Virus record (IMG/VR): IMGVR_UViG_3300021961_000042
Coordinates: 41,564-105,563 of that record
DNA from: a virus
DNA length: 64,000 bases
Direction: 5' to 3' (one strand)
Made by a program: the position numbers and the translations under genes. Shown here piece after piece: positions 26,909 to 63,283 of this stretch (within the stretch, counting starts at the first letter, position 1; each line of letters starts with the position of its first letter). The notes below the pieces were generated by a model. That model saw only the letters and a program-made list of their open reading frames with translations, was not told where the DNA came from and made no database searches.

Positions 26909-27532
26909 ATGAAAAAAATAATAAGACTTACGGAAAGGGATTTAACAAGAATAGTTAGAAGAGTATTAAATGAAGAACCAATGACTAATCCTGAAGAAGA
27001 AATGCCAACATTACCAATGCAAGAAATACCTAGTAATATACCTAATAGTATACATTCAGATATCGATGATTTATATGAAAAAAGAGATGAATTGGCTAAA
27101 GAGTTTATGAAGTTGGAACGTAGAAGTGGTGGTTTAATGGGTAGATTGAAAAATAAAGTAGGAGATAAAATGGGTGAGTTGGAAGATAGCGCAAAAGAAG
27201 AAATTGAAGAAATTAGAGTAAATGTATTAATGATACTTGATGACATCAAAAGAAAATTACAATCTTTGAAGTTAAACGCTAAAAAAAGAAAAGAGGAAAG
27301 AATGAATAGAAGACATAAAGAAAGATTAGAAAGAGAAATTGACATATATGAAAAAAGCATTCAAGATATTAAAGATAAAAAAATAATAACTGCTAGAGAT
27401 TTACAAAACTTAAAAGATATTCTATCAATCAGTGGTATATACATAACCATGATCGGAAGTATAATTGCAAGATTTATATACATGCATAATGATGAATCAA
27501 ATTCAGAAATTAATCCTCATCTAAGAGACTAA
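26909..27532 (+). CDS. Putative packaged internal protein, coiled-coil (207 aa)
   Basis: The N-terminus MKKIIRLTERDLTRIVRRVL ends in L-N-E, like the capsid-targeting and prohead-protease-cleaved leader of T4 internal proteins. Residues about 50-160 are highly charged and helical (E/K-rich), followed by a short hydrophobic helix near residue 175 (IYITMIGSIIARFIY). The gene is a single-gene unit: late-type element before, strong terminator after. A head-packaged protein is inferred; the domain itself is unknown. Confidence 0.7.
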   Translation: MKKIIRLTERDLTRIVRRVLNEEPMTNPEEEMPTLPMQEIPSNIPNSIHSDIDDLYEKRDELAKEFMKLERRSGGLMGRLKNKVGDKMGELEDSAKEEIEEIRVNVLMILDDIKRKLQSLKLNAKKRKEERMNRRHKERLEREIDIYEKSIQDIKDKKIITARDLQNLKDILSISGIYITMIGSIIARFIYMHNDESNSEINPHLRD

Positions 27533-27545
27533 ATAATAACTTAAC

Positions 27546-27569
27546 CCACCCCAAAAAGGTGGATTTTTT
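27546..27569 (+). terminator. Rho-independent terminator
   Basis: CCACC and GGTGG form a stem around CCAAAAA, followed by TTTTTT after one A. Almost the same sequence terminates the gene at 31759. Confidence 0.85.
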
Positions 27570-27573
27570 GTTG

Positions 27574-27604
27574 TTTGACAATTCCTCCTTATTTCTTATC
27601 TTTT
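27574..27604 (+). promoter_or_regulatory. Bacteroidota-type promoter for primase
   Basis: TTTG at 27574-27577 and TATCTTTT at 27597-27604 are separated by 19 bases, close to the TTTG-N19-TAnnTTTG consensus. The ATG begins only four bases after the -7 element. Confidence 0.6.
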
Positions 27605-27608
27605 ATGT

Positions 27609-28529
27609 ATGAAAGAAGAGTCACTATTAGTTGACCTTATCGAGAATATTTTTGGTGAACCTAAAAACGTAAATGAATATAGTGGTCAAATATCTGTTGA
27701 CTGTCCCGTTTGTTCCTACGAGATAAAAGGTTTATCAAAAACCGATGGTAAGGGAAATTTAGAAATAAATTATATTAATCATGTTTATAAATGTTGGGCG
27801 TGTTCTGAAACACACGACACTCACGGACATTTGGGTAGGTTAATTGAACAATTTGGGTCAAAAAAAGATAAAAAAACATATAATCTCATAAGACCCGATA
27901 AGGTAGAAAAAAAACAAAAAGAATATAAAAAACTTGAACTACCAAAAGAATATAAAAGATTTGAAGAAATACACCCCTTACATTTACCAAGAAAAGAGGC
28001 TTGGAACTATCTAAAAAAAAGAGGAATAACTCAAGAAACAATAGATAAGTATAAAATCGGTTTATGTATTGAAGGTGAGTATGCTGGTCGTATTATTGTC
28101 CCATCATTTAATAAAAAAGGTGAATTAAATTTTTTTGTTTCAAGATCATGGAATCCAAGAGCGAAGTTAAAATACAAAAACCCTGAAGCGGCTAAAGACT
28201 TTCTTATTTTTAATGAAAGTTTAATTGATTGGAAAAAAGACATTTATTTAGTTGAAGGAGTATTTGACTCATTCTTTTTAGATAATTCAATAGCGTTACT
28301 TGGAAAGTATGTGAATGATAATTTATGGGAAAAATTATATGAAAAGGCAAAAAAAGATATAATAGTTTGTTTAGATGGTGACGCATTTAATGATGCTAAA
28401 AATATATATGACAAACTTAATGGAGGGACACTATATGGTAGAGTTAAATTAATGAAACTACCAAAAGATAAAGACGTTTGCGATCTTAGAGGTCAAATAA
28501 ACGAATATATGATACAAGAAAAAGAATGA
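27609..28529 (+). CDS. DnaG-type DNA primase (306 aa)
   Basis: Residues about 28-60 carry a zinc-binding motif (C-P-V-C ... C-W-A-C). The TOPRIM core follows: IYLVEGVFDSFF near residue 215, then IIVCLDGDAFNDAKNIY near 255, with the conserved E and D-x-D residues. It synthesises primers for lagging-strand replication. It is shorter than cellular DnaG and has no helicase domain. It overlaps the next gene by four bases (ATGA). A host-like promoter lies directly upstream, so early or middle expression is likely. Confidence 0.88.
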   Translation: MKEESLLVDLIENIFGEPKNVNEYSGQISVDCPVCSYEIKGLSKTDGKGNLEINYINHVYKCWACSETHDTHGHLGRLIEQFGSKKDKKTYNLIRPDKVEKKQKEYKKLELPKEYKRFEEIHPLHLPRKEAWNYLKKRGITQETIDKYKIGLCIEGEYAGRIIVPSFNKKGELNFFVSRSWNPRAKLKYKNPEAAKDFLIFNESLIDWKKDIYLVEGVFDSFFLDNSIALLGKYVNDNLWEKLYEKAKKDIIVCLDGDAFNDAKNIYDKLNGGTLYGRVKLMKLPKDKDVCDLRGQINEYMIQEKE

Positions 28530-29383
28530 ATTTAAAAGAAGTTGCAAAAGAAATAAGAGATATCTTATTAAAAAGACAAAATGAGCTACATTTAACTTTT
28601 GAAGAAGAGAAACATAGATACACCATGAAAGATGTTGATGGAACCATCAGAGATGATTTTCCATCAGTATCGAAAGTAATGAAGTTATTTTATGATGAAT
28701 TTCCTACCGAAGAGGCTGCAAGAAATAAGGCAAAAGGGGACCCATATATTATGCAAACACTACTTGCTGAATGGGACGAGGCTGGTAAAACATCAACAAA
28801 CATGGGAAGTCGTGTTCATTATGAGTTAGAAATTGAAACAATCAAAAGACACGGAATTAAAAAAGAAGTGAGACAACCACTTTATGAGTGTGATATGGAA
28901 ATGATCATGAAAGGTGATCGTATGATTAAGGCCGGATATAAGTTTTTGAAACTAATGGAAGAAAGAGGTGCGGTTTTATTAGATACTGAGATTGTTTTGG
29001 GAGATCCCGAACTTGGTTACACGGGACAACCCGATAAAGTTTGGTTAATGTTTAATAAACAAAGGACGGGTTTTGGAATAGTAATTACCGATTGGAAAAC
29101 TAACAAAAAGAAAAACATGGAAAGTAATGATTACACAAAACCCATGAGAGAACCATTCAAGTTTTTACCAAACACTGCTCTTGGTCACTATAACACACAA
29201 TTACCACTTTATGGTAAATTACTTTTAAAAATGTTAAAAGGTAGTAAATATGAAAACGTACCATTTTATGGTTGTGTTATTGTTCATTTAACTGAAGAAC
29301 AAGAATTTACTGAATATAGAGTTGAAAGAAAAGTAATTGACACCATTATGAACATGGATATTAAACAACGTTTGACAAAATAA
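28526..29383 (+). CDS. PD-(D/E)XK nuclease, RecB/exonuclease-like (285 aa)
   Basis: Residues about 155-195 show the active-site pattern: E in LLDTEIVLG, then G-Q-P-D-K-V-W, then VITDWKTNKKK (D-x-K). A conserved downstream Q-L-P-L-Y-G motif is typical of this nuclease superfamily. N-terminal F-P-S-V-S-K-V-M also occurs in related phage exonucleases. It is co-translated with primase and probably acts in recombination or DNA degradation. Confidence 0.82.
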   Translation: MNLKEVAKEIRDILLKRQNELHLTFEEEKHRYTMKDVDGTIRDDFPSVSKVMKLFYDEFPTEEAARNKAKGDPYIMQTLLAEWDEAGKTSTNMGSRVHYELEIETIKRHGIKKEVRQPLYECDMEMIMKGDRMIKAGYKFLKLMEERGAVLLDTEIVLGDPELGYTGQPDKVWLMFNKQRTGFGIVITDWKTNKKKNMESNDYTKPMREPFKFLPNTALGHYNTQLPLYGKLLLKMLKGSKYENVPFYGCVIVHLTEEQEFTEYRVERKVIDTIMNMDIKQRLTK

Positions 29384-29411
29384 ATAAAATAAAAAATTTT
29401 AAAAAAAAGAA

Positions 29412-30233
29412 ATGGAAGAAAATATGAAATTGATGAATGGAGATTGTTTAGAACTAATGAAAACAATTCCAAATAATTCGGTAGATTTAATTTGTTGTGA
29501 TTTACCATATGGTACTACTGATAGATATGGCGGTAAAAAAACTAAGTCTAATAGGTTTATGGAATGGGACAATATAATACCATTAGATAAATTATGGGTT
29601 GAGTATAAAAGGATCTTAAAACCAAACGGTGTCGTTTGTTTAACTGCGGACCAACCCTTTACCTCCCAATTAGTGATGTCCAACTTAGATTGGTTTAAAT
29701 ATGAATTTATTTGGAAAAAAAACATAACCACTGGATTTCTTTTGGCTAATTACAGACCTATGAAACAAACCGAGGACGTTCTGATTTTTTCAGAAGGAGG
29801 TGCTTCCGCGGCATCCGCAAAGGCGGGTAATAATATGACCTATAACCCCCAAGGGTTAGAGCCTAAAGTAGTTGTTCGAAAAAATGGTAAAAATAGACTC
29901 GGTAAATTTTTATCTAATGAAGAATTCTTAGGTAAAAATAATTCTTTACTTGGTGATAAAGAATATAGTCAAAAATTTACAAATTACCCTAAAGAGATTA
30001 TAGAATTTGGTATGGATATCGACACTATACACCCAACACAAAAACCAGTCTCTTTAATGGAGTATCTAATAAAAACCTACTCAAATGAAGGGGAAGTTGT
30101 TTTAGATAATGCAATGGGATCGGGGTCTACGGGAGTTGCGTGTATGAACACTAATCGTAAATTTATAGGTATTGAATTAAATGTGGACTATTTTAACTCC
30201 GCTAGTGAAAGAATTAAAAAACTAAAAAAATAA
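29412..30233 (+). CDS. DNA adenine methyltransferase, DLPY type (273 aa)
   Basis: Motif IV is D-L-P-Y-G near residue 35 (ICCDLPYGTT). Motif I is MGSGSTGVACMNTNRKFIGIE at the C-terminal side, preceded by H-P-T-Q-K-P. This order (IV then I) is the beta class of amino-methyltransferases. It probably forms m6A in a short recognition site to protect phage DNA or redirect restriction. No cognate endonuclease is adjacent. The start at 29412 is four codons before another in-frame ATG (29424) and is uncertain. Confidence 0.85.
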   Translation: MEENMKLMNGDCLELMKTIPNNSVDLICCDLPYGTTDRYGGKKTKSNRFMEWDNIIPLDKLWVEYKRILKPNGVVCLTADQPFTSQLVMSNLDWFKYEFIWKKNITTGFLLANYRPMKQTEDVLIFSEGGASAASAKAGNNMTYNPQGLEPKVVVRKNGKNRLGKFLSNEEFLGKNNSLLGDKEYSQKFTNYPKEIIEFGMDIDTIHPTQKPVSLMEYLIKTYSNEGEVVLDNAMGSGSTGVACMNTNRKFIGIELNVDYFNSASERIKKLKK

Positions 30234-31758: not shown

Positions 31759-32388
31759 ATGAAAAATATTTTATCAAGTTTAAATGAATCTGAAAAAGTA
31801 AGGATTCTTGAAATGCACAAAAATGCAACAAGAAAAAATTATCTTAAAGAACAAGATAAAAACCCATTGGCATTTGCTACTGATCCTAACTATATGGATT
31901 ATTCTGGATTCAACAAGTCTAGTGAACCTGATGAGGAGGTTAAAAAATTATCAGAAGTTACATTATCCGCTTGGTTACCATTTGATGCGGCAAAACAAAG
32001 AGCGTCAAAAAAGGGTGGAGATATATTAGTATACTTCTATAACGATGGTTGTCATTATTGCGAAAATTTTACAAAAAATATAATGTCAAACGAAACGATA
32101 AGAAAAAAAATAGTTGAAAATAATTTAACTCTATGTAAAATAGTCATGTGTGTAGAGAAAGGTAAAGAAAAAGTGAATTGGCAAGGAAAAGAAATTACTT
32201 ACACTACTTGTGACGATAGTCAAAGGGAAGTTTGGGAACGTTTTGAAGATCAAGTCACTGGTGTTCCTAGTATGGTAATTGTAGATAGTAGTGGAGATAA
32301 AGTTAAGGCTGAATCTACAATAGCAGGTGACCCAAGAATTGCAACCAATGCTCAAGCTATGGCGTTATCACTGATGGATAAAATATAA
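31759..32388 (+). CDS. Thioredoxin-fold protein with capsid-targeting-like N-terminus
   Basis: The start at 31759 is chosen over an upstream in-frame codon because of the late-type element and the leader MKNILSSLNESEKVRILEMH, which contains L-N-E and I-L-E. Residues about 90-200 form a thioredoxin fold: VYFYNDGCHYCENF (C-x-x-C), later GVPSMVIVD with the cis-Pro loop. Another Cys pair lies near residues 128-148. It may act on disulfides or as a protein carrier. Isolation between a late-type element and a terminator suggests a late, possibly packaged protein. Confidence 0.78.
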   Translation: MKNILSSLNESEKVRILEMHKNATRKNYLKEQDKNPLAFATDPNYMDYSGFNKSSEPDEEVKKLSEVTLSAWLPFDAAKQRASKKGGDILVYFYNDGCHYCENFTKNIMSNETIRKKIVENNLTLCKIVMCVEKGKEKVNWQGKEITYTTCDDSQREVWERFEDQVTGVPSMVIVDSSGDKVKAESTIAGDPRIATNAQAMALSLMDKI

Positions 32389-39284: not shown

Positions 39285-39352
39285 CAAAAAAAAGTTCTTC
39301 TTGTCAGAATACATTAAGAACAACCACAGTCAGAATACTGTGGTTTTTTTTT
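39285..39352 (+). ncRNA. Candidate small RNA with two hairpins sharing a loop sequence
   Basis: From a host-type promoter the transcript would contain hairpin 1 (GTTCTT/AAGAAC, 39294-39321) and hairpin 2 (AACCACAGT/ACTGTGGTT, 39322-39345), followed by a run of T. Both contain GTCAGAATAC (39303-39312 and 39329-39338), with much of the decamer in the unpaired loop. A repeated loop decamer suggests target pairing or protein binding. No plausible peptide is encoded. The next gene is convergent on the minus strand. Confidence 0.62.
39322..39352 (+). terminator. Rho-independent terminator of the sRNA
   Basis: A nine-pair stem with loop CAGAAT is followed by a run of T ending near 39352. The T run reaches the end of the convergent gene. 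Confidence 0.85.
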
Positions 39353-39746
39353 AAACGAAAATTTGGAGTTGTCCTTTACTTACGGTAAACCCTTCTTTTT
39401 TCATTACTGTTATTATTATCAAATCCCAGTGATTTATATAATTTTTTTTTGGCTCAATAACTATATTAAGTTGATCTCCTTTTAACCTACTTACAATAAA
39501 TCTTTTACCATTTCTGATTTTACCTTCAATAATGTTATAAACTATATCATCTTTTGCGTCCTCTAATAATTTTACAATATTTAAATCGTAAATTTTATTT
39601 CCCGATCCATGTCTCCATTTTCTGTCATTGGTATGACCCCATTCATCGTGGTAAAGATCAAAATCAAAAGTCACATCATTACTAATTTCATGAAATTTTT
39701 GTTCTTGTAATAAAGTTTTTTTAATTATGTTATTTAAACCTATCAT
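39351..39746 (-). CDS. Putative packaged internal protein (131 aa)
   Basis: The leader MIGLNNIIKKTLLQEQ contains L-Q-E, in the style of T4 capsid-targeting leaders. The remainder is a compact acidic/basic domain with D-F-D-L-Y-H-D-E-W-G-H-T-N and a later FIVSRLKGDQLNIVI strand. On its own strand TATTTATT lies just upstream (39750-39757). It is divergent from the membrane protein at 39802. The domain is not recognised. Confidence 0.68.
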   Translation of the reverse strand: MIGLNNIIKKTLLQEQKFHEISNDVTFDFDLYHDEWGHTNDRKWRHGSGNKIYDLNIVKLLEDAKDDIVYNIIEGKIRNGKRFIVSRLKGDQLNIVIEPKKNYINHWDLIIITVMKKEGFTVSKGQLQIFV

Positions 39747-40932: not shown

Positions 40933-41503
40933 ACCTTTGGGTTCATCTAAAAACAAAAAACAAATAATTCTTTGTGAAACCAAAAGGAATGTAAAAAATT
41001 ATATTAACTCTTTAAAATATAGATACAACGGAGAAAATAAAAACCTACCAAATTTTATCATATCTAGAGATGGTGAAATTTATAAAATAATGGAACCATT
41101 ATCTTATGCTAATTATATGAACGATTCTGTTTTAGATAAAAAATCTATTATAATATGTATGGAAAATTTGGGTTGGTTAGAAAGAAAACCACTTAGTTCT
41201 ATATACATAAATTGGATTGGTGATATTTATAAAAAAGAAGCGTTTGAAAAAAGATGGAGGGATAGAGTTTTTTGGCAACCATACGACGAATATAAACAAA
41301 TTGAAAGCTTAAAAAAACTTTTAAAAAATTTGTGTGATGAGTATAAAATACCAAAAATTTGTCCTGAATCTAATGTTAGACAAGAAGGTGTAGAGAACTT
41401 TTCAGGTATTATATCTAAAAGTTCTTATGATTTCAGGTCAAAAGATTTAAACCCATCTTTTAACTTTAAACATTTGAAAAAATTTTTAGAAAATGATGAA
41501 TGA
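40901..41503 (+). CDS. Degenerate amidase_2/PGRP-like protein (200 aa)
   Basis: The order Q-I-I-L-C-E-T, F-I-I-S-R-D-G-E-I-Y-K-I, I-I-I-C-M-E-N-L, then SLKKLLKNLCDEYKIP, and finally F-N-F-K-H-L resembles N-acetylmuramoyl-L-alanine amidase_2. The usual zinc ligands are not where expected: H-H-T is C-E-T, and the later His residues are missing. It may be a binding protein or a divergent lysin. It overlaps the upstream gene by 32 bases. Confidence 0.55.
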   Translation: MVDLSELTEFKPLGSSKNKKQIILCETKRNVKNYINSLKYRYNGENKNLPNFIISRDGEIYKIMEPLSYANYMNDSVLDKKSIIICMENLGWLERKPLSSIYINWIGDIYKKEAFEKRWRDRVFWQPYDEYKQIESLKKLLKNLCDEYKIPKICPESNVRQEGVENFSGIISKSSYDFRSKDLNPSFNFKHLKKFLENDE

Positions 41504-42020
41504 TTATGATGAAATAAAAAATCTTATTAAGAGAAGTAAAATGCTTTTTGAGCAAAAGGGCCCTTTAAATTTGGCAAAAAGTATCGAATCAGATATTGAA
41601 CAAGCGGATCCTGAAGAGGTTAAAAAAGAAAAAAGTAAAACATATAGAATTTCTGGAGGACTTTTAACTATCCATGCTAAAGATAAGAAAGAATTAGACT
41701 TAACCACAGATGAAAAAACAAATTTCCAACAAACAATGGACGAATTTGTTGCGGAAGTTTCAGATTTGGCGGAATTTGGAGTATTAAACATATATGAAAA
41801 CGAAGTTCAATGGAGTGGAAAAATAATGGATTTTGACATTGAATTTTTCTATTCGATAGGTGAAAACAATGGTGTATATGTGAATGGTGATATGATTAAA
41901 TTAGATGAAAAATTGACAGAATTAGTAACAAAACTAACAACATATTACGAAAAATTTAAAGCAAAGTGGGCTAAAGTAATTGCATTAAGAAAAAAAACAA
42001 AAATGAAAAAAGAAAAATGA
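41493..42020 (+). CDS. Putative packaged internal protein (175 aa)
   Basis: The start is 41493 or 41496. The leader NDYDEIKNLIKRSKMLFEQK contains L-F-E. A K/E-rich linker is followed by a small domain (YRISGGLLTIHA, later ILNIYENEVQWSGKIMDFDI). It lacks its own late-type element but is in the operon started at 39777. It overlaps both neighbours. Domain unknown. Confidence 0.65.
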   Translation: MMNDYDEIKNLIKRSKMLFEQKGPLNLAKSIESDIEQADPEEVKKEKSKTYRISGGLLTIHAKDKKELDLTTDEKTNFQQTMDEFVAEVSDLAEFGVLNIYENEVQWSGKIMDFDIEFFYSIGENNGVYVNGDMIKLDEKLTELVTKLTTYYEKFKAKWAKVIALRKKTKMKKEK

Positions 42021-42373: not shown

Positions 42374-42787
42374 ATGAAAAACATTTTAATTCTTATTTTA
42401 TTTTTACTTCCTTTAACTTTATTATCACAAAAAGATATAAAAAAAGACACAACACAGATATGTTTTCCAACTGAGGTAGGTAGACAAATCGAATCTGATT
42501 TAAATGAACTCGATAAGTTAAGAGAATTAAAAAAACTGACTGATTTTGAAATTAAAGAATTAGAAAAAAAGATAGTTAAACAAGATTCAATAATTTCTAA
42601 ACTTGAACAAAAAGATGTTAATAACCAATTGATTGTTGCTGGGGTTGAAGAAAAATTTAAGTTGGTAGAAAACGACAATAAGGACCTTAGAGGTAAATTA
42701 AAATGGGCTGGAATAAAATCTAACATAATTGAAATAGCATCAGGTGCGTTAATGGCAACTTTTGTTTATATACAATTATTTAAATAA
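42374..42787 (+). CDS. Exported coiled-coil protein with C-terminal anchor (137 aa)
   Basis: Residues 1-18 are a signal-peptide-like segment (MKNILILILFLLPLTLLSQ). Residues 45-110 are a coiled coil and residues 118-136 form a C-terminal hydrophobic helix. No lipobox Cys is present, so it is not a classical outer-membrane spanin. It is adjacent to the spanin-like gene and could complement it. It overlaps the next gene by one base. Confidence 0.58.
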   Translation: MKNILILILFLLPLTLLSQKDIKKDTTQICFPTEVGRQIESDLNELDKLRELKKLTDFEIKELEKKIVKQDSIISKLEQKDVNNQLIVAGVEEKFKLVENDNKDLRGKLKWAGIKSNIIEIASGALMATFVYIQLFK

Positions 42788-43254
42788 TGATAACAAAAAA
42801 ACAAATATATAAGTTTCTAAACGAAAAAGAAACTAAAGAAGCCACGGGAGCCGCATCTGCGGGTGGTTTTTCGGCACCTCTTTTTAGTATGTGGTCTGAT
42901 GATGAAGAGGCAAAAGAAGAATATAAAAAAATGGAGGGTGAATTTAAAGAAGCGACTTCATCTTCTTCAGTTGGTGCGTACGACACACCTGGTTTTGATG
43001 ATGTAAAAATGAAAGGTAATAACCCAGTTGGTAGAGGAAAACAATTTAAAAAACCATTATATAAAGGTGGTGGTTTTGTAAAATTAAATAAAAAATGTAA
43101 AACATTTCCATATTGTAGCCAAGGTAATAGTAAAGACAAACCAGTAAAAGTTTCTACGTCTTTATCGCCTTTGAGCGAAGCAATACAAAATGTATCAAAC
43201 AAAACAGGTTTAAGTGTTGATGAAATAAAAAAAATATTACTTTCTAAAATGTAA
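42787..43254 (+). CDS. Putative packaged internal protein with repeated E-A-T motif
   Basis: The leader MITKKQIYKFLNEK contains L-N-E. Two similar blocks follow: EATGAASAGGFSAPLF and EATSSSSVGAYDTPGF. A basic centre (KGNNPVGRGKQFKKPLYKGG) has a C-x(4)-C pair. The C-terminus T-G-L-S-V-D-E-I-K-K-I is helical. It is the end of the operon started at 39777. The repeated blocks look like linear processing or binding motifs. Confidence 0.68.
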   Translation: MITKKQIYKFLNEKETKEATGAASAGGFSAPLFSMWSDDEEAKEEYKKMEGEFKEATSSSSVGAYDTPGFDDVKMKGNNPVGRGKQFKKPLYKGGGFVKLNKKCKTFPYCSQGNSKDKPVKVSTSLSPLSEAIQNVSNKTGLSVDEIKKILLSKM

Positions 43255-43287: not shown

Positions 43288-44448
43288 ATGGACAGAAAAA
43301 TTTTAAATATAGTAAACAGAGTTCTTGGAGGAAAAAACTCTAACAGAAGATTATTCGAATCAAAAAAAGAAATGTGTTCTGAGTGTGGTAGTGGTGGAAT
43401 GTATGAAGGTGAATGTAACGAATGTGGATACATGAAAGAAAATAAAGGTATGTGTTCAGAATGTGGTGGTAGAATGATGGAAGGTAAATGTTCTGAGTGC
43501 GGACACAGTAAAGAAAGTGAATTAGGCGAAAGACTTCATGGTAAACAATACAAATTAGACAAAAACAAAAATGGAAGATTGGACAGAGAAGATTTTAAAA
43601 TGATTAGAAGAAAAACTGAGGTCAAAGAAAAATTATATGGTAGACAACACGTTCTAGATAAAAATAATAATAAAAAAATAGACGCCGAGGACTTCAAAAT
43701 GATAAGAAAAGAGTCTGTTTATGGTATTCAGATAGATAATAAAACACATTACTTTAAAGAGAATGAAGTTATTAATATAATTGAAAATATTGTTTTAGAA
43801 GAAAAGAAAAAAAGTAAAACAAAAACACCAAATGTAACTAAATCATCTTTAGAAAAATCTAAAAAAGAAAACGATGATTATATTGCAAGTGTTGTTAAAA
43901 AAATGAAAGATTACCTTAAAGATGGTTCAAAAGGCGATTATGACATGATGCCAAAAGATTTTCCTAAAGGTAATGGTCAATTAGAAAAAATGAAAAAAAT
44001 GGCTTATACACCATCTAACACTGCTCAAGAATATATTGATAATTTTACGGCAGCCGGATTAGAAAATTTAGATTATGATGAGATACACCCTAACGATGAA
44101 TGGGTGACGGACAATTTAGTTGGTAGTTCAAGAACAGGTAACAACTCAGAATGGGCAAATGCTGTTGAAACAAATGTCGGTGAAAAAAGAAATAAGATTA
44201 GACAAAACAATTTATTGGCAAAAGTAAAAAGAAAGGCATATCAAAAAGACGACCAACCAGTAAAAATAGATTCTTCGGGTGAAGATTTTGGTGATACTGT
44301 CGACGATCTTTTAAAAAAATATAGTAGTAACCCTAAAAATAGTAAGAAAGTCACTAAAGAGTCTACTAACACAAAACAAGATAATGTTTTAAACGAAGAT
44401 TTGGTCAAAATGAAAAAATTAATTGAGTACGGAAAAAAGACTCAATAA
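43288..44448 (+). CDS. Zinc-ribbon and EF-hand protein, putative packaged cargo (386 aa)
   Basis: The leader MDRKILNIVNRVLGGKN then RRLFES contains L-F-E. Residues 30-75 hold C-S-E-C-G, C-N-E-C-G, C-S-E-C-G and C-S-E-C-G pairs. Two EF-hand-like loops follow: D-K-N-K-N-G-R-L-D-R-E-D and D-K-N-N-N-K-K-I-D-A-E-D, each before F-K-M-I-R. Position 12 is Asp, not Glu. A second leader-like segment occurs near residues 155-173 (VINIIENIVLEEK). The rest is Lys-rich. Calcium and zinc binding are predicted, not shown. Confidence 0.75.
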   Translation: MDRKILNIVNRVLGGKNSNRRLFESKKEMCSECGSGGMYEGECNECGYMKENKGMCSECGGRMMEGKCSECGHSKESELGERLHGKQYKLDKNKNGRLDREDFKMIRRKTEVKEKLYGRQHVLDKNNNKKIDAEDFKMIRKESVYGIQIDNKTHYFKENEVINIIENIVLEEKKKSKTKTPNVTKSSLEKSKKENDDYIASVVKKMKDYLKDGSKGDYDMMPKDFPKGNGQLEKMKKMAYTPSNTAQEYIDNFTAAGLENLDYDEIHPNDEWVTDNLVGSSRTGNNSEWANAVETNVGEKRNKIRQNNLLAKVKRKAYQKDDQPVKIDSSGEDFGDTVDDLLKKYSSNPKNSKKVTKESTNTKQDNVLNEDLVKMKKLIEYGKKTQ

Positions 44449-48895: not shown

Positions 48896-50272
48896 ATGGC
48901 TATTAGATTTACGAGTATTTTAAGAGATTTAATTGTTGAGAGCTCAAGATTCCAAGTACTATTTGACAAATACGTTAAACCAAATAAAGAAACAAGAAAA
49001 GGTATAATGCCTTTTCATGTGTTATTTGAAATAATTGCCGCAGACCCAACATCAAGAGTTCCTGAAGGAATGGAAGCGGTTAATGCAAAACCAGAAGACA
49101 TGGAAAAAGTAAAAATTGGAAAATATACCCAATGGATACTTAAAAATTATGTAACACCAAAATTCGAATTAAGTAGTGGTATTACGGATCCTAATAGCCC
49201 CGCGGTTAAACAAGCAATTAAAGAATACCAAGCATTATTTTTAGAGGATCTTTATAAAGTTACAGGTGACTTAATGAAGTTTGAAAGATTCAAAAATAGA
49301 TTACCCCAAGAATATAGAGATATTAATAAATTAACACCCGAAACACTTTACGATCAAGTTAAAGATTTCAGTTTAGAAAAAACTAAGGCGACCGCTGACG
49401 AGAAAAAAGAGGCATCAACGTCATACCAACATCCAGGAGCTGAAGAAGTTAAAAGATTTGGTGAATGGACTGTTGTTAAAATTTCAAATACAGGACAAAT
49501 AGGTAAAGACGCGGCATGTTTTTATGGTGGATATTATTTAGAACCACAAAAAGGTGAAACAAGATGGTGTACATCATCGCCAGGTTTAACATGGTTTGAT
49601 AGATACATTAAAGATGGTCCTTTATATGTTGTTATCCCTAATTCACCACGTAAATTTACAGGAAGTATGGAAGTTGGCGAAAAAACAGGTCTTCCAGCAT
49701 TAAGATATCAATTTCACTTCCCATCTAATCAATTTATGGACCCTGCGGATAGAAATATTGACTTGGTTAAATTTTTACAAGATAGTGAAGAAGGTTTAAG
49801 AGAATACTTTAAACCTCAATTCATGAAAGGTTTGTCTCAAAATAACGGTGAAAAAGTATCAGTTAACTATCCGGGTGATTCGGCATCTAAATTCATCGCA
49901 CTTTATGGTTTTGAAGAGTTCTTTGATACATTACCTGAAAATATTAAAAGATTGGAATTTACACACAAAGGAGGAGGTGAATCGTTTAATTTACCATTAC
50001 CTGAAAGAATTGGAGATTTCAAACAACTAAGTGCTTTACACCTCGTTGGTTGTGTTTCTAAAATACCTGATAGTATTTGTAATTTAAAAGAATTGAAGTT
50101 CTTATCATTACCTGATAATCCAAACTTACAACCTTTACCGGCATGTTTGGCTGAATTACCAAAATTATCAATTGTTAATATTAAAGGTAGTACTGGTCAA
50201 AACGTAGTACCTGAAGCATTAAAACAGAGAGCAGAAAGAGATAATTCATTCTTTATTTTTGACACAAAGTAA
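48896..50272 (+). CDS. Leucine-rich-repeat protein, putative packaged cargo (458 aa)
   Basis: The leader MAIRFTSILRDLIVESS contains I-V-E. The centre has G-E-T-R-W-C-T-S-S-P-G and Y-I-K-D-G-P-L-Y-V-V-I, then QFHFPSNQFMD. A 'W-C-T ... Y-x-x-x-G-P-L-Y' block occurs in uncharacterised phage proteins. The C-terminus has about three leucine-rich repeats (LPLPERIGDFKQLSALHLVG, then SICNLKELKFLSLPDN). LRRs usually bind proteins. A host-interaction role after delivery is inferred. Confidence 0.72.
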   Translation: MAIRFTSILRDLIVESSRFQVLFDKYVKPNKETRKGIMPFHVLFEIIAADPTSRVPEGMEAVNAKPEDMEKVKIGKYTQWILKNYVTPKFELSSGITDPNSPAVKQAIKEYQALFLEDLYKVTGDLMKFERFKNRLPQEYRDINKLTPETLYDQVKDFSLEKTKATADEKKEASTSYQHPGAEEVKRFGEWTVVKISNTGQIGKDAACFYGGYYLEPQKGETRWCTSSPGLTWFDRYIKDGPLYVVIPNSPRKFTGSMEVGEKTGLPALRYQFHFPSNQFMDPADRNIDLVKFLQDSEEGLREYFKPQFMKGLSQNNGEKVSVNYPGDSASKFIALYGFEEFFDTLPENIKRLEFTHKGGGESFNLPLPERIGDFKQLSALHLVGCVSKIPDSICNLKELKFLSLPDNPNLQPLPACLAELPKLSIVNIKGSTGQNVVPEALKQRAERDNSFFIFDTK

Positions 50273-50629: not shown

Positions 50630-52339
50630 ATGTCAGATATGACAGTCCTTTTTAAAAAGGAATTCAAAGAGTATAATACATTTTTTTATAAAGATTTTAA
50701 TAAAATTGATTACTCAAATAATCATGATGAGTTATTCAATTCAGAAATGTATTGGGTACCAAAAAATCCACCTAGAGGATGGGTTGGTAATTTTACCTCA
50801 ATTAAAGGTGATAGTGGTGTTGCAAAAGATGAAGAAACATATGTAAAAAATTATGGTAATCCTTTAACTGAAACACATTTAAAAAGAATATTATTTGTTA
50901 TTGAAGAAAATGAAGACAAAATAAGTTTTAAAGTTTTCAGATATGTAAGTATGAGAGGTGTAGGTAAAAAATATTTTAAAGTTAGAAAACAAATTTATTT
51001 TCTAACATTTAACTATAAGAGAAAGTTATTTTATACCGGAGAATCTACATTCAAAAGGAAACAAAAATTAGGGTTCAGATGTAAAGTTAATGTTCCCGAC
51101 ATTGAGGTGACATCAATCATGAATGAACTGAATTATTATTTTACAGTTCATGAAAGATATGATGTAATCCATATGTTTTTAAATAAAATAATTGAAAAAA
51201 CTAATGCCAAAGTTTCAACAAATAATTTCAACACAATACAAGAAAAGTATTATGAAATTATTCTTCAAAATTCAAAAATAAAATACCCAAATGCTTTTTT
51301 GAAGTTTTCTAAAATGTTTGCACCAACTAAAGAAGTAAGAAAGTATGATGCCAATTTGGTTACTTGGTTTATGAAAAAAAATAATCTGAAAGGTGTAAAA
51401 ATAAGACAACTTTTAAATAACTATAATTATTTGGACATTGATGGTGTTGTTGAGTTATATAGATTTTTAGGACAAGACTTATTTAATAAAATTAAAGAGG
51501 AGGTTTTTTTTACAACAGAAATGTATTCAGTTTATAATCCGGTATCGGATGGTGGTATATATTATGAAAATATGGAATCACTTATTACAAAAAAAGAAAA
51601 AGAAAATATACTTAACATTTTGAATGAAACAAAATCTAAAAATTTTTTAGGCACATTAAGGGACCATTTAAGATTTAAACATAAACTTTTGAATTATGGT
51701 GAGGAAGTTAAAATAGTTGCAAAGAATTTAGAAGAGTTCGGCCAAGAACACGTAGAATGGTCAACATTACTTGAATCATATAGTAATGGTCACGTCACTA
51801 GATTTTACGGAGAAGATACCGTTTTGGTTGAAGATCCAATCTACACTTCAGACGAAACCTATTTTCCAATACTTTTAAAAACAACAGAAGATTATCAGGG
51901 AGAATCTGCTCATCAACATAATTGTGTAAGAACATATTCGGAAAAGGCCCATTGTTTTATTGTGTCACTTAGAAAAGGATGTAAAGATAGTAATGATAGA
52001 GCAACAATTGAATATCAATTCACGCAAAATGGAATAAGAAGAACACAAACTTTAGGTAAATATAACAAGATGTTGACAGACGAATGGATTGAGGCTGTTG
52101 ATGATTTAGATAAAAGACTAGATTATCTTTTCAAAAAAGGTTTTATAAAATTACCGGTAATGACTAAAAAGTATAAAAATGGAAGGATTAATAGAATGTT
52201 TGCTAAATTTAAGGAGTATGACGAAACAAAATCTGTTTATGATATTTATCCGAGATGGGTTAATGAAATAAATGATGAAATTAATATAAGTTTTGATTTC
52301 AATTATGGTTATGACGAACTATTTATAGACTTACCATGA
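50630..52339 (+). CDS. PcfJ-like protein (569 aa)
   Basis: The C-terminal part includes E-S-A-H-Q-H-N-C-V-R-T-Y, then C-F-I-V-S-L-R, then A-T-I-E-Y-Q-F and a T-L-G-K-Y-N-K motif. This is the H-N-C-V ... I-x-S-L-R pattern of the PcfJ family, found on conjugative elements and phages with unclear function. The N-terminal 300 residues are not recognised. It overlaps the next gene by four bases. Confidence 0.72.
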   Translation: MSDMTVLFKKEFKEYNTFFYKDFNKIDYSNNHDELFNSEMYWVPKNPPRGWVGNFTSIKGDSGVAKDEETYVKNYGNPLTETHLKRILFVIEENEDKISFKVFRYVSMRGVGKKYFKVRKQIYFLTFNYKRKLFYTGESTFKRKQKLGFRCKVNVPDIEVTSIMNELNYYFTVHERYDVIHMFLNKIIEKTNAKVSTNNFNTIQEKYYEIILQNSKIKYPNAFLKFSKMFAPTKEVRKYDANLVTWFMKKNNLKGVKIRQLLNNYNYLDIDGVVELYRFLGQDLFNKIKEEVFFTTEMYSVYNPVSDGGIYYENMESLITKKEKENILNILNETKSKNFLGTLRDHLRFKHKLLNYGEEVKIVAKNLEEFGQEHVEWSTLLESYSNGHVTRFYGEDTVLVEDPIYTSDETYFPILLKTTEDYQGESAHQHNCVRTYSEKAHCFIVSLRKGCKDSNDRATIEYQFTQNGIRRTQTLGKYNKMLTDEWIEAVDDLDKRLDYLFKKGFIKLPVMTKKYKNGRINRMFAKFKEYDETKSVYDIYPRWVNEINDEINISFDFNYGYDELFIDLP

Positions 52340-54126: not shown

Positions 54127-55311
54127 ATGAGTTTAAATTCCTTAATTAAAAAAATAATAAAAGAAGAAACCGAAGAGTGGGTTGACGTTAGTCCTGAAGA
54201 ATATAAAGAACTTTTGGATTATGTTAATGGTGATGGTTCTATTATTAAAAGACTTCCTGATTATGCTGGTAAAAAAATTAGAATTACCGGTGAATTAGAT
54301 CTTAGAGGAAAAGAAAAAGTCACAAATATAGATAGTATTGATTTAGTACAAGGTGATTTAGACATCAGTTATACTAAAATTCCATTTTTTGATAAAAATA
54401 AAGTAAGAGGTAGGTTAGATTATTGGGGTTCTGAAATGCAAAGATTAGAAAAACAAAAAATATACGAAGAAAGAATTGCATATCAAAACGAATTAAGAGA
54501 AGATGGTGCTTGGAATGTTGAAAATGATGATAAAGAATCAAATGAAACTGAAGCAATTTTTTATTATCTTGAAGAAGGTGGGATTGTACAAGAAGGTGAA
54601 GATAAATATTTTTTAGTTAATACCAAATACAAACACTATGGCGATTCAAGTGTGTATATGTGGTTAGGATCAAAAAACTTTGAAAGTGAATATGTTGTTT
54701 ATGAAGGAGAAGATAATTTACATGAAGCTGCAAAAGAAAATTTAGAATCACTAATTGATGATGTTGGTTTTGATGCCTTTAATCAATACGTTTGGGAAAA
54801 CCATATTGATGAAAGATACGTGAGAGACTACCTTTATGAGGACTATAGTGAATACGTTAGACAAAGTCCCGAAGATTGGAATATAAAAAGAGAATTAACA
54901 AATCAACAAAAACAATATTTAGAAATTCACCAAGCAAATATTGATAGGTTAAATCAAAAACTTGAAGAAGGTGGTCTTACTGATGAAGAAGTTGAAGAAA
55001 TTGAAAACGACATTTACGACTACGAACAATTAATGGAAGACATTAAAGAAAATCCAGAAGGTGATTACGATGAAGAATCAATCGAAGAAGCTATAGAAAA
55101 CATGGTTGACGACAATGTTGATAATATTTTTGACCTTTTAAGAGATAGAGGTCTTGATAATAGTGCGCTTTTAGATTTTGTTGATGTAGATGCCGCTATT
55201 GAATACGTAATTAGAAGTGATGGTTACGGACACACGTTAAATAGTTATGACGGAACAGAAGACTCATATAACATCAACGGAGAAGATTATTATGTTATGA
55301 GAATGAACTAA
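54127..55311 (+). CDS. Acidic putative packaged cargo protein (394 aa)
   Basis: The leader MSLNSLIKKIIKEETEEW contains I-K-E. Residues 10-70 (IIKRLPDYAGKKIRITGELD) hold a short strand-rich repeat reminiscent of leucine-rich or pentapeptide folds. The rest is extremely acidic and helical, with repeated D/E runs from residue 240 on. The high negative charge may help it share the capsid with basic proteins or mimic DNA. Function unknown. Confidence 0.7.
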   Translation: MSLNSLIKKIIKEETEEWVDVSPEEYKELLDYVNGDGSIIKRLPDYAGKKIRITGELDLRGKEKVTNIDSIDLVQGDLDISYTKIPFFDKNKVRGRLDYWGSEMQRLEKQKIYEERIAYQNELREDGAWNVENDDKESNETEAIFYYLEEGGIVQEGEDKYFLVNTKYKHYGDSSVYMWLGSKNFESEYVVYEGEDNLHEAAKENLESLIDDVGFDAFNQYVWENHIDERYVRDYLYEDYSEYVRQSPEDWNIKRELTNQQKQYLEIHQANIDRLNQKLEEGGLTDEEVEEIENDIYDYEQLMEDIKENPEGDYDEESIEEAIENMVDDNVDNIFDLLRDRGLDNSALLDFVDVDAAIEYVIRSDGYGHTLNSYDGTEDSYNINGEDYYVMRMN

Positions 55312-58073: not shown

Positions 58074-59888
58074 ATGAAAAAACTACTTAAAGAATCCGGT
58101 ATAAGGGACATAAAACAAATTGCCAAAAGATATAAAAAGGCTAAAATTTATTTTCACCAAGACTTAGATGGTGTAACAACCGCTTTGGCTATGAAAAACT
58201 ACCTTGAACAAAATGGGATCAATGTAGTTGATGCTGAGGTTATACAATACGGTGCTAAAGAATTTGCTATTAAAAAACCTGAAGGTGAAGGTGACGTGAT
58301 GCCGGTATTGGTTGATTTTGCTCACGGAAAACCGATGTTTGTTATCCATACCGATCACCACGATAGTCAAGCCGGTGTTGAGGGAGATACTGCAACAAGT
58401 TTTAGACACGCAAGATCTAATGTCGAAACAATATCACAGATATTATCACCAAAAGAAATTTTTACCGCAGACGACATATTATTAATCTCAACAGTTGACT
58501 CAGCAAACTTTGTTGCAAATAATATAACACCAGAAATGGTTATGAACTACCTTTTCAAATATGATAAAAATGAGTCTTTGAAAAGAAATAAAATGTTAAT
58601 GGGGCTTGTTGTTAATAAATTACTTTTAGCATATAAAGGAAAACCAAATTTTTTAGAAGAAATTGTTTTAAATGCAAAACCATCCCTTTTAAGTATTCTT
58701 AATTTTATAAAAAAAGTGGCATTAGAAAAAGGGTACGCAACCCCTGAAATGATGACAAAAAATACTGAAGATTATGTTCAAAGTAGAAAAGAATCTGGAG
58801 TTGAAAGAACAGGTAGCGTATTATCTCAATACGGTTTTGGTTCGGCAACAAAACCAGGATCATATGATAGATACACACCATTTAGAAATAATCCTGATGC
58901 CGACTTCTTAGTTACAGGAATGCCTTTTGGTAGTGTTCAAGCATCTTGTAACCCATTCAAAGAAAGTAGATCACTCAAAGGTATAAATTTAGGTGAAATA
59001 AAGGATCAAGTTTTATTAGACTTCAAACCAGAGTTAGAAAAACAAATATTAACATTTAGAACAATAAAAAGAATTGCAGAAAAAGAAGCAACAAAAGAAT
59101 CTGTAGGATTCACCTCAAAAGATATGATGGCCCTTTATGGTTCAATGCCATCTTACGATCCAAACACACAATCAATAAATGGTTATGATTTTTTAGTTGC
59201 AAACTCAGGAGGACATAAATGTATTACTAATATTTCAGGAATTAATTTTATGTATAGTGGTTACGACAAACCATACACTAAAGATTTACCAAAAGAAGCT
59301 ATACCTATTGCTTTTTATGAAGGAGATAATAACTTTATTAAAGATATTAAACAAAAACTTTTAAGATTTAGAAAGTTATCTGAAAAACAAATACAGGCGG
59401 CAATTAGTGGAATGAAAAGAGAGGGGATCAATACAGACTCATTAATGAATGTAAAACAAGAAAGAGGTTTTTTAGATTTAGTAAAAGAAATGAAAGACAG
59501 GTTTGTTGATATTTTAAATCAAAAAATGAATTCAGAAAATGAAAGTATTAATGAAAGTTATGATAAAAAAGATATTGCAACATTATTAAAAAAACACGTT
59601 AAAAAAGAAAAAACATTAAATGAAAACGATTGGAATTATATATTAAAAAAAGTTAATGGTGTTATTGATAATAGAGGACAGTGGGAACATCCCGGAAAAT
59701 GTACAATGATTGAAAGTAATACTATTACCATGAAAAATGTTGATTACCCTTTAGTTGGAATAGACAATACAGGACAAATGAAATTAATGTTACCAAACAT
59801 GAATTATGAATTTCCCGGAGAAAAAGTATTTGAAATACCTTGCATGGGTAAATATAAAAATCTTGCAATAGAACTATTAAGAATATGA
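58074..59888 (+). CDS. DHH-family phosphoesterase, putative packaged cargo (604 aa)
   Basis: The leader MKKLLKESGIRDI contains L-K-E. The enzyme core has Y-F-H-Q-D-L-D-G-V-T-T near residue 25, PVLVDFAHG near residue 82, and HTDHHDSQ near residue 96. These are the metal-binding motifs of the DHH superfamily (RecJ, nanoRNase, c-di-nucleotide phosphodiesterases). The C-terminal half is unrecognised. Substrate could be a nucleotide second messenger or short nucleic acid. It overlaps the GNAT gene by four bases. Confidence 0.8.
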   Translation: MKKLLKESGIRDIKQIAKRYKKAKIYFHQDLDGVTTALAMKNYLEQNGINVVDAEVIQYGAKEFAIKKPEGEGDVMPVLVDFAHGKPMFVIHTDHHDSQAGVEGDTATSFRHARSNVETISQILSPKEIFTADDILLISTVDSANFVANNITPEMVMNYLFKYDKNESLKRNKMLMGLVVNKLLLAYKGKPNFLEEIVLNAKPSLLSILNFIKKVALEKGYATPEMMTKNTEDYVQSRKESGVERTGSVLSQYGFGSATKPGSYDRYTPFRNNPDADFLVTGMPFGSVQASCNPFKESRSLKGINLGEIKDQVLLDFKPELEKQILTFRTIKRIAEKEATKESVGFTSKDMMALYGSMPSYDPNTQSINGYDFLVANSGGHKCITNISGINFMYSGYDKPYTKDLPKEAIPIAFYEGDNNFIKDIKQKLLRFRKLSEKQIQAAISGMKREGINTDSLMNVKQERGFLDLVKEMKDRFVDILNQKMNSENESINESYDKKDIATLLKKHVKKEKTLNENDWNYILKKVNGVIDNRGQWEHPGKCTMIESNTITMKNVDYPLVGIDNTGQMKLMLPNMNYEFPGEKVFEIPCMGKYKNLAIELLRI

Positions 59889-60376
59889 ATCTTTACGAGA
59901 ATATATTAAGAATCAATCAATTAATAAAAGAAAACTCTACTATTGAAAACTTTATACAAAAAGGAGAGTTAAATATTGTGCCAGGTGTTAACATTACATT
60001 AGTAAAGGAGAAAGATGAAATAATTGGAGAAACAAATTTAATTGATATGGATAATGCGTATTTGAACGATTACTACTTGAATAATTTTCTTAAAAATGAT
60101 TCTAATAACATGAATGAAAGTAATGGCGACATTGTTATAAATAATTCTAATACTTTATATGTTCATGATGTGAATGTTGATGAAAGTTTTAGAGGAATGG
60201 GTTATGGTAAAAAAGTTATGACTAAATGCCATGAAGTTGCAAAAAAAATGGGTTATGACAACACTTGTTTAATAGTACAAAAAGAAAACACACCGGCGGT
60301 TTCTTTATATGAAGGTTTAGGGTATCTAACAATCAAAGAAGACAATTTAAGAAAATTTATGTTGAAAAAATTATAA
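59885..60376 (+). CDS. GNAT acetyltransferase, putative packaged cargo (163 aa)
   Basis: The leader MNLYENILRINQLIKEN contains I-K-E. The GNAT core has L-Y-V-H-D-V-N-V-D, then R-G-M-G-Y-G-K-K-V-M (acetyl-CoA loop), then TPAVSLYEGLGY. It would acetylate a protein or small molecule. If packaged, it could modify a host target early in infection, as T4 packaged Alt does by ADP-ribosylation. The target is unknown. Confidence 0.78.
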   Translation: MNLYENILRINQLIKENSTIENFIQKGELNIVPGVNITLVKEKDEIIGETNLIDMDNAYLNDYYLNNFLKNDSNNMNESNGDIVINNSNTLYVHDVNVDESFRGMGYGKKVMTKCHEVAKKMGYDNTCLIVQKENTPAVSLYEGLGYLTIKEDNLRKFMLKKL

Positions 60377-61761: not shown

Positions 61762-61781
61762 GTGCATTAAAATTTTTTGTA

Positions 61782-61789
61782 TATCTTTG
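61782..61789 (+). promoter_or_regulatory. TATCTTTG promoter -7 element
   Basis: An exact match; TTTG is about 20-25 bases upstream within the preceding T run. The ATG at 61794 begins four bases later. Confidence 0.58.
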
Positions 61790-61793
61790 TATC

Positions 61794-62177
61794 ATGAAAG
61801 AAGGAAAGGCAATCAGAGACAAACAAATAAAGGCAATCAAAACGGTTTTGAAAGAATCAAATTTTGAATTAAAACAGTTAGATAACACCGCGTATTCTGA
61901 ACTTGATAAGGCGGTTGTAAAAATTGTTAATGTAAGAAAATATAAAAGCGGTTGGGGTAGTAGTTTTTTGTATGAAGTTGACGTGGTTGTTGATATGAGA
62001 ATAGACGGTAGTTATTTTTACTCAAACAGATACTGTGAAAGATTTAAAGTAAGATGTAATGGTTATTATAGATACAAAATTGAAAAAGTAATAGCAAATG
62101 AGATTAAATATTTTGGTGTAGACACTCAATATGATAATGTATGTGTTAAAAAAATAACTTACAAACAAATTGTTTAA
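61794..62177 (+). CDS. Hypothetical protein (127 aa)
   Basis: A basic alpha/beta protein: an N-terminal helix (AIRDKQIKAIKTVLKESNF) and strands with SSFLYEVDVVVDMRIDGSYF. The start is almost leaderless. No family recognised; it is the first gene after the large RNA and its terminator. Confidence 0.65.
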   Translation: MKEGKAIRDKQIKAIKTVLKESNFELKQLDNTAYSELDKAVVKIVNVRKYKSGWGSSFLYEVDVVVDMRIDGSYFYSNRYCERFKVRCNGYYRYKIEKVIANEIKYFGVDTQYDNVCVKKITYKQIV

Positions 62178-62215
62178 TTCAAAATTTATTCTTAACTTTA
62201 CAATAAATAAAAAAT

Positions 62216-62482
62216 ATGGCAACACATAAACACGTAATGATAGTTCATCCTAAGTTCGGAGAAGTTTTAAATGAGACTTTCATGGATGAGGTACAGTTCA
62301 AAATATTTTTAAATATGGTCCACTCTTCAATAGAGTTGAACCAAAACCTCTCAACTTTCAACGGTAAGGACTTCTTAGTTCACATACCAAACTCAATACT
62401 TAAAGACTCTTTGGTTATCGGTAAGACAAAAGAGGTGTCTATGGCCGAGGTGGTACTTGCAAAATCTAAATTGGAGGGGTAG
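62216..62482 (+). CDS. Hypothetical protein (88 aa)
   Basis: A small alpha/beta protein with a TAACTTTA promoter-like element about 17 bases upstream. N-terminal HVMIVHPKFGEVLNETFMDE is followed by L-V-H-I-P-N. The codon use includes more C than neighbours. Role unknown. Confidence 0.62.
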   Translation: MATHKHVMIVHPKFGEVLNETFMDEVQFKIFLNMVHSSIELNQNLSTFNGKDFLVHIPNSILKDSLVIGKTKEVSMAEVVLAKSKLEG

Positions 62483-62485
62483 TTT

Positions 62486-62573
62486 CTTTGTTAATCTTTA
62501 AAACAAAGTGGTGGCAGTTCGAACACATCTTGTGTCGACCCGAAAATAGGTGAGGTAATACTCACCTTTTTTT
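62486..62573 (+). ncRNA. Structured 3' region or small RNA with terminator
   Basis: Three hairpins occur in about 90 bases. They are CTTTGTT/AACAAAG (62486-62508), TCG-ACACA-TCT-TGTGT-CGA with one bulged A (about 62514-62538), and AGGTGAG/CTCACCT plus a T run (62548-62573). The first two go beyond a simple terminator. It may be a 3'-UTR-derived RNA or an independent sRNA. Confidence 0.45.
62548..62573 (+). terminator. Rho-independent terminator
   Basis: AGGTGAG pairs with CTCACCT around GTAATA and is followed by seven T. Confidence 0.85.
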
Positions 62574-62584
62574 ATTCATTCATA

Positions 62585-62592
62585 TATTTATT
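62585..62592 (+). promoter_or_regulatory. Candidate late promoter element TATTTATT
   Basis: The element lies three bases before the ATG at 62596, directly after a terminator. Confidence 0.45.
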
Positions 62593-62595
62593 TAT

Positions 62596-62979
62596 ATGAA
62601 AATACAGTTAACGGAATCTGATTTAGTAATACTAATTAAAAAAATTATTTCTGAAACAAAAAACCAAACAATTTATGAGGATATGTATGGTTCCGTTGAG
62701 GATATTAATTTACTTAATGAGGCAGAATACCAAGGTAGAAAAGTACAACTTGGTAAAATAATGCAGGGAGACATTAAAAAATTTAAAGTATATGTAAAAA
62801 ATGACAAAGGAAAGGTTGTTAAAGTAAACTTTGGTTTTGGTGGTAAATCTGCTAAAGGTAAAAGAATGACAATCAAAAAAAACAACCCTGAAAGAAGAAA
62901 GTCATTTAGAGCAAGACATAATTGTGATAACCCTGGCCCAAGATGGAAACCAAGATATTGGGCTTGTAGAACATGGTAA
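62596..62979 (+). CDS. Basic putative packaged protein (127 aa)
   Basis: The leader MKIQLTESDLVILIKKIISE ends in I-S-E. A second acidic/hydrophobic segment (EDINLLNEAEYQ) contains L-N-E, a possible second cleavage site. The rest is very basic (GGKSAKGKRMTIKKNNPERR, then RKSFRARHNCDNPGPRWKPR), fit for DNA binding, with two Cys. It lies one base upstream of another leader-bearing gene. A packaged DNA-associated protein is inferred. Confidence 0.7.
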   Translation: MKIQLTESDLVILIKKIISETKNQTIYEDMYGSVEDINLLNEAEYQGRKVQLGKIMQGDIKKFKVYVKNDKGKVVKVNFGFGGKSAKGKRMTIKKNNPERRKSFRARHNCDNPGPRWKPRYWACRTW

Positions 62980-62980
62980 T

Positions 62981-63283
62981 ATGGGAAAAATATTAATAAC
63001 AGAAAAACAGTTTAAAAAAATGGTCAGAGACCTTAAAGAACATGAAGACGATGGTGGTTCTTATATGGCAAAACAACAATTGTTTACAATTGCCACATTG
63101 GCGTATAAAATGTGGGAAATGATGGAAGATGGAGAACAACTTGAAGATTGGATGGAAACTAAAATTGCACAATCAGAACAGTCTGTCACATCAGTTGTTA
63201 AATCTTTTATGTATGATGAGGCTGAAGATAAAATCAAAGGTGCGAATGATATCGATTTTAACGATTTAATAATAGGTCGATAA
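62981..63283 (+). CDS. Putative packaged protein (100 aa)
   Basis: The ATG at 62981 gives MGKILITEKQFKKMVRDLKE, a leader ending in L-K-E. An in-frame start 57 bases earlier lies inside the previous gene and is less likely. The remainder is an acidic helical domain (LFTIATLAYKMWEMMEDGEQ) like those in other phage proteins bearing this leader. It ends in a terminator. Confidence 0.7.
   Translation: MGKILITEKQFKKMVRDLKEHEDDGGSYMAKQQLFTIATLAYKMWEMMEDGEQLEDWMETKIAQSEQSVTSVVKSFMYDEAEDKIKGANDIDFNDLIIGR

Follow-up and report, generated by a model that had tools for sequence, protein, structure and literature searches.

Leader genes of the window

The DNA described here (referred to as the window) is a stretch of 64,000 bp, corresponding to bases 41564–105563 of the linear IMG/VR record IMGVR_UViG_3300021961_000042 (105,563 bp; contig G000) from an aquatic virus of the T4-like kind. 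A first-pass annotation had proposed that twelve of its genes begin with a short leader peptide ending in (L/I)-x-E, and all of them (12/12) were recovered as open reading frames (ORFs) at the positions and with the leader endings that it had given. They are listed below by leader, with the predicted cut after the Glu marked by an arrow, the remainder of each protein being referred to as its body.

26909–26974 (+): type A leader MKKIIRLTERDLTRIVRRVLNE↓, ending LNE; gene 26909–27532, 207-aa protein of unknown function
31759–31851 (+): type B leader ..SEKVRILEMHKNATRKNYLKE↓, ending LKE; gene 31759–32388, thioredoxin-like protein
39702–39746 (–): type D leader MIGLNNIIKKTLLQE↓, ending LQE; gene 39351–39746, 131-aa protein
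41493–41552 (+): leader ..NLIKRSKMLFE↓Q; gene 41493–42020, 175-aa protein
42787–42825 (+): candidate leader MITKKQIYKFLNE↓, ending LNE, weak; gene 42787–43254, 155-aa protein
43288–43359 (+): candidate leader with RRLFE↓, weak; gene 43288–44448, EF-hand protein
48896–48940 (+): leader MAIRFTSILRDLIVE↓, ending IVE; gene 48896–50272, 458-aa protein with an LRR-like C-terminus
54127–54165 (+): type D leader MSLNSLIKKIIKE↓, ending IKE; gene 54127–55311, very acidic protein
58074–58094 (+): short leader MKKLLKE↓; gene 58074–59888, DHH-family protein
59885–59932 (+): candidate leader MNLYENILRINQLIKE↓, ending IKE, weak; gene 59885–60376, GNAT acetyltransferase
62596–62721 (+): leader MKIQLTESDLVILIKKIISE↓, ending ISE, plus a second site LLNE↓AEYQGRK; gene 62596–62979, basic protein
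62981–63040 (+): type C leader MGKILITEKQFKKMVRDLKE↓, ending LKE; gene 62981–63283, 100-aa acidic protein

Homology strongly supports the leaders of eight genes (26909, 31759, 41493, 48896, 54127, 58074, 62596 and 62981). Profile hidden Markov models (HMMs) of the leader types scored 35.6 bits at 26909 (type A), 63.8 bits at 31759 (type B) and 41 bits at 62981 (type C), the last of which ends in [LIM]xE in 13/13 orthologs. At the other genes the predicted site was likewise retained among orthologs, reading L-x-E↓Q with x = F, M or Q at 41493 (5/5), I-(V/I)-E↓(S/N) at 48896 (9/9 orthologs reaching the site), [IL]xE↓[EQ] with K, Y, R, I, N, C or L at P2 at 54127 (26/26), [IL]xE↓S at 58074 (39/39), and L/I-(N/H/Q/T)-E↓A at the second site of 62596 (12/12). 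Support is moderate for 39746 (9.2 bits with HMM D), whose single ortholog begins with another leader, ..HLLLE↓E. Beyond the window, the contig holds three more leader genes, at G000 positions 11053, 28358 and 36460. Two other candidates, the gene at 61794 (KTVLKE↓S) and that at G000 28119 (TRLSE↓K), were rejected because their sites are not conserved.

Leader peptides and their predicted cut site

The combination of a net-basic stretch with [LI]xE was found N-terminally in 17/85 cases, versus 4.6% internally (p=2e-6) and 25/430 at internal Met residues (p=9e-5), and the six relatives all showed this excess, as did this genome. When the third motif residue was varied, N-terminal enrichment across the 20 residues was highest for Glu (3.8x, with D at 1.4x). 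Relatives were gathered via searches with the DHH protein and the tail sheath, and their 3,124 ORFs were searched with leader profiles (consensus MKRIIRLTESDLxRIVRRVIxE for type A and ISEQEKxRILEMHxxATxxQYLxE for type B). Matches were N-terminal in 68/76 (type A) and 30/31 (type B) cases, and those of both types sat on 42 unrelated body clusters. Compared with 8,622 internal decoys at a threshold of 10 bits or more, N-terminal versus decoy matches numbered 54 versus 0 for A, 20 versus 1 for B and 49 versus 0 for C, and 66 versus 1 for D and 8 versus 1 for F, the D and F seeds containing the initial Met, which favours N-terminal matches somewhat. This yielded 252 leader proteins on 72 body clusters, with a strict [LI]xE ending in 228/252. 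The first-pass annotation had treated the leader as T4-like and of one kind; all twelve genes do bear a leader but, judged by their sequences, the leaders fall into no fewer than five families (A, B, C, D and F), and those of three genes are weak.

The type A leader was further examined with a degenerate DNA pattern for LTESDLxRIVxR, from which the cut site and start codon were excluded and whose position was left unconstrained, across 2.9 million IMG/VR viral contigs (at least 153 matches). Among the matches listed, 152/153 were located within 12 residues of an ATG, Glu occupied the predicted cut position in 150/152, P3 was I, L, V or M (130 I, 16 L) with P2 free, and the bodies fell into at least 95 clusters. 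The proposal that one leader is shared across unrelated bodies was thus borne out in all three sets of proteins. Moreover, Glu22 was invariant in 92 aligned type A representatives with unrelated bodies. The leader codons are nearly synonymously saturated (for type A, synonymous differences of 0.41 versus 0.48 for random draws) and the DNA flanking the leaders is unrelated, indicating that selection acts on the leader peptide.

Outside these phages, tblastn of the leader peptides against INPHARED gave no match at E<=10, a search of low power given such short queries. Among bacterial and archaeal genomes (257 Gb), the type A pattern matched only 5 times, with one convincing leader in a Prevotellaceae metagenome-assembled genome (MAG), and a related pattern matched in 1/61 genomes of that MAG's family; leader A was therefore rejected as a host system. 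The MAG in question (RUG11288, L356 / L358) is a rumen bin, in which a 91-aa gene, which may belong to a prophage or to the chromosome, carries the extended type A leader MKRSVRLTESDLHRIVRRSVSMVLRE.

The alignment of leaders across related phages, as the first-pass annotation had suggested, showed P2 to be free, with P1 held to Glu and P3 to Leu/Ile, a pattern conserved in most ortholog families. For example, the site of G000 11053 is kept in 52/53 orthologs despite a leader identity of only 0.34. When 108 ortholog families were scanned without bias, Glu had the highest N-terminal rate ratio among the nine residues compared (3.6, from the small number of seven cases), and 58074, 54127, 41493, 11053 and 28358 emerged unprompted. 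This site is also present in the head proteins of the relatives, with LINE↓A in 4/4 copies of gp23 and two [LI]xE sites in the gp21 propeptide across 15 loci, in agreement with the first-pass reading of a prohead-protease-type cut site. These gp21 proteins match Pfam PF03420 over the cut-off (E mostly 1e-23 to 1e-28), and their motifs ELNHPESS and G(V/I)SSRGVGS contain a His and a Ser that are invariant across the 15 loci and that we take to be the catalytic residues.

The search for a gp21-type protease gave a divided outcome, being negative on the 105-kb contig itself and positive in its three largest relatives (G001, 229 kb; G002, 203 kb; G003, 166 kb), each of which encodes an S77 prohead protease above the cut-off with gp23 a few kb off. 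In G001, gp21 and gp22 are separated by a gene with a type A leader. More broadly, S77 is encoded by 17/27 long leader-A contigs, including 9/10 of those over 250 kb, and the ten without S77 also lack gp23, so that they fit fragments or divergent heads.

Within leaders A, B and C, a further [LI]xE occurs early on (LTE, ISE and ITE, respectively), so that these leaders may be cut twice, as in the propeptides of phage phiKZ, which have several cut sites (PMC9026906). On another contig (G078, 1186–3200 and 292395–293080), repeated type C-like starts MKYLITESQ were seen in paralogous small genes, with no terminal [LI]xE beyond ITE↓SQ.

Leader exchange, cargo and genomic context

Leaders were found to be exchanged between homologous bodies, confirming the modularity proposed in the first-pass annotation: in 8 body clusters, leaders of two or more types were present. 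Orthologs of 62596 bear leaders of types A, C or D, the DHH protein begins with either MKKLLKE↓SGIRDI or MKIIITESQLKMLIKE↓SGIRDI (in relatives of 58074, the same SGIRDI follows MKIIITESQ(L/F/Y)...IKE↓), and, depending on the phage, a type D or type A leader precedes a conserved protein encoded close to the head genes. In G004 (113196–117016, with L038 and L039), a tandem array of six genes with differing bodies mixes type A and B leaders, which alternate and include one A/B chimera; this array resembles a cassette hot spot. G001 holds 21 leader genes and two jumbo relatives gave 30 and 45 leader profile matches, some of type C without a terminal site; the largest relatives hold roughly 20–45 candidate leaders each. 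The 62596 protein matches phrog_7595 only from residue 45 on, and this mature body (window 62722–62976) was also observed in the Kyanoviridae phages C48C1 and HTVC008M (L225:9920–10237; L226:7860–8261), where C48C1 has a different leader (MKKFKQYIDE) with LTE↓AEYQGKK conserved and HTVC008M has LEE↓AEFQGKK.

Several bodies could be assigned to known folds. HQDLDG and TDHHD are invariant in the DHH body of 58074, whose structural model (mean pLDDT 74) matched RecJ/Cdc45 and pGpG phosphodiesterase in Foldseek (E 1e-4, prob 1.0); its Pfam DHH match was weak (0.0018), and a PDB sequence search with the DHH profile gave no match. The 31759 body matches Thioredoxin_7 from residue 72 (Pfam, 1.1e-9), that of 43288 the EF-hand (Pfam, 2e-6) and that of 59885 Acetyltransf_1 (6.9e-13), while the LRR_14 match at the C-terminus of 48896 falls below the cut-off. 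For 26909, no homolog of the body was present within the compared set, and there was one weak PADLOC match (LeoBC, 2e-4). The body of 54127 has a net charge of –61 and is well folded from residue 18 in the AlphaFold model (pLDDT >90), preceded by the leader as a poorly placed helix (residues 5–15, pLDDT <50); the fold had no PDB match at E<=0.001 and matched one uncharacterised phage protein in BFVD. In other phages, two type A bodies carry the cell-wall-binding domains LysM and PG_binding_1. We infer that such cargo would target the metabolism or the defences of the host in the early phase of infection. The DHH and GNAT genes are separate in the window, overlapping by 4 bases, whereas in relatives L062, L063 and L081 the DHH protein carries the GNAT domain as a C-terminal fusion.

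The left end of the window encodes a tail sheath (PHROG 23) and a helicase (phrog_62). Among named phages the sheath matches those of T4-like phages at ~30% identity, with Microcystis phage Mel-JY01 as the best match; this phage was rejected as a leader-bearing isolate, because, despite a gp21-like protease, its genome has no leaders of type A or B. The window further contains a 569-aa protein with a PcfJ match (50630–52336; PF14284, 7e-6) and no conserved leader, and a tRNA-Arg (tct) at 63544–63618, near the contig end. Promoters of the Bacteroidota –7/–33 type numbered 9 in the window versus 8.6 expected by chance, so that no host was inferred from them.

Proposed capsid targeting and its alternatives

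The leaders of T4 internal proteins (IPs), known as capsid-targeting sequences (CTS), are 10–19 aa long and cleaved after L/I-X-E (PMC9026906), and Ip1–3, which have only this leader in common, are injected into the host (PMC12373910). Against the background of an N-terminal module, a site with fixed P3 and P1 and free P2, leader exchange, selection on the peptide and co-occurrence with gp21, all established by computation, we consider it highly probable that the leaders described here are T4-type CTS, greatly expanded and diversified into several families. An N-terminal peptide of 7–31 residues, mostly basic and amphipathic, would bind the prohead core and carry the attached protein into the assembling head, where the S77 prohead protease (gp21) would cut after [LI]-x-E and release the body; the freed body would later be ejected with the DNA and act early in the new host. 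By T4 precedent, Asp at P1 would prevent processing yet leave targeting intact. The leaders form a recombining module, with interchangeable families on more than 90 unrelated bodies in aquatic T4-like and jumbo phages.

A number of points weigh against this proposal. Core binding, cleavage, virion presence, delivery and early function are all inferred from T4, and any correspondence with the leader of the T4 IPs may be one of analogous function, not of homology. Neither gp21 and gp23 nor a head module were found on the 105-kb contig, which we therefore regard as a fragment from which this module is absent. Some type C proteins lack a terminal site, and leaderless GNAT homologs exist. Homology support is weak for three genes: the orthologs of 42787 are variable, with the site aligning in 2/5, those of 43288 (8.7 bits with HMM D) end in ..VLSE↓ or ..KIYE↓, and among the GNAT homologs of 59885 some end in NIFE↓S, some have no leader and others occur as fusions with the DHH protein. 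L/I-x-E is accordingly not retained at 42787 and 59885, and retained in part at 43288. Finally, bare [LI]xE within the first 30 aa is weakly enriched (31/85 versus 25% internally, p=0.02), and this motif is too common for its count to serve as evidence.

This weak enrichment, together with the three leaders of the twelve that are not conserved, would also be expected if basic N-termini merely coincided with a frequent tripeptide. A chance origin may apply to 42787, 43288 and 59885; for the set it is refuted by the decoy, blind-pattern and ortholog tests, and we give it hardly any credence. Scarcely more plausible is a shared DNA element, such as a promoter-proximal or recombination sequence, rather than a peptide signal: the tandem arrays and the A/B chimera do reveal recombination at the leaders, but their synonymous codons differ almost like random draws and their flanks are unrelated.

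The peptide might instead route proteins elsewhere, such as to the tail, the membrane, a replication compartment or a host partner, with the terminal [LI]xE merely part of the signal. Amphipathic leaders could bind many things and two type A bodies bind the cell wall, but the fixed P3/P1 and free P2 form a protease-site pattern, the same site is found in the gp21 propeptide and gp23, and S77 is present wherever leader-A contigs include the head module, making such a destination improbable. A more serious, though still unlikely, alternative is that the tagged proteins are cut by gp21 in the prohead, yet serve as core, scaffold or internal structural parts of a complex head instead of host-delivered effectors. 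Some leader genes indeed lie in or beside the head module (G001 61583, YMFF protein), and some bodies are small and charged, without enzyme domains. In contrast, several bodies are enzyme-like (DHH, thioredoxin, GNAT), and the cargo set varies strongly among relatives, unlike structural parts.

Capsid targeting by these leaders would resemble T4 IPI, IPII, IPIII and Alt in the short N-terminal propeptide that S77 gp21 cuts after L/I-X-E (PMC9026906, PMC12373910), in the use of one leader on unrelated bodies and in the T4-like head module. However, T4 has three IPs plus Alt (at least ten IPs being reported among its relatives; PMC12373910), whereas the large relatives here hold 20–45 candidate leaders, known from sequence alone, in at least five families (7–31 aa or longer) and with enzyme-like bodies (DHH, thioredoxin, GNAT). 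The relatives' non-redundant leaders have a median of 20 aa (range 7–49); the 7-aa leader of 58074 lies below the T4 minimum, and type B exceeds the T4 range. The ejection and inner-body proteins of phiKZ, SPN3US and 201phi2-1 are alike in that many head proteins are cut after x-x-E (PMC9026906), in their large repertoire and in their multi-site propeptides, but the phiKZ motif is S/A-X-E instead of [LI]xE with a T4-type head module, and short recombining leaders common to unrelated proteins set the present phages apart from that group. Polyvalent proteins of phages and conjugative elements have likewise been proposed as effectors that are packaged and then delivered together with the DNA (PMC5512222), but these are long and multidomain, in contrast with the mostly short bodies behind exchangeable leaders found here. 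The 'capsid targeting sequence' literature, as covered by title and abstract and with little of the subscription literature, contained no such leader repertoire outside relatives of T4, P1 and SPN3US. While the mechanism class is known from T4, the scale, leader diversity and cargo set in uncultured phages appear new.

The few internal proteins of T4 are the textbook case of phage protein delivery. We lean towards the broader view that uncultured aquatic T4-like and jumbo phages use a general-purpose packaging code, in which several interchangeable leader families send dozens of fast-changing proteins of each phage into the head, among them nuclease/phosphodiesterase, thioredoxin and acetyltransferase bodies as well as wall-binding and highly acidic proteins, to be delivered together with the DNA. 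Given such a code, the injected effector set would be readable from sequence. If true, hundreds of unannotated metagenomic phage proteins would become predicted injected effectors, detectable by their tag alone, protein delivery by phages during the first minutes of infection would become open to direct test, and new short packaging tags would be available for engineered heads.

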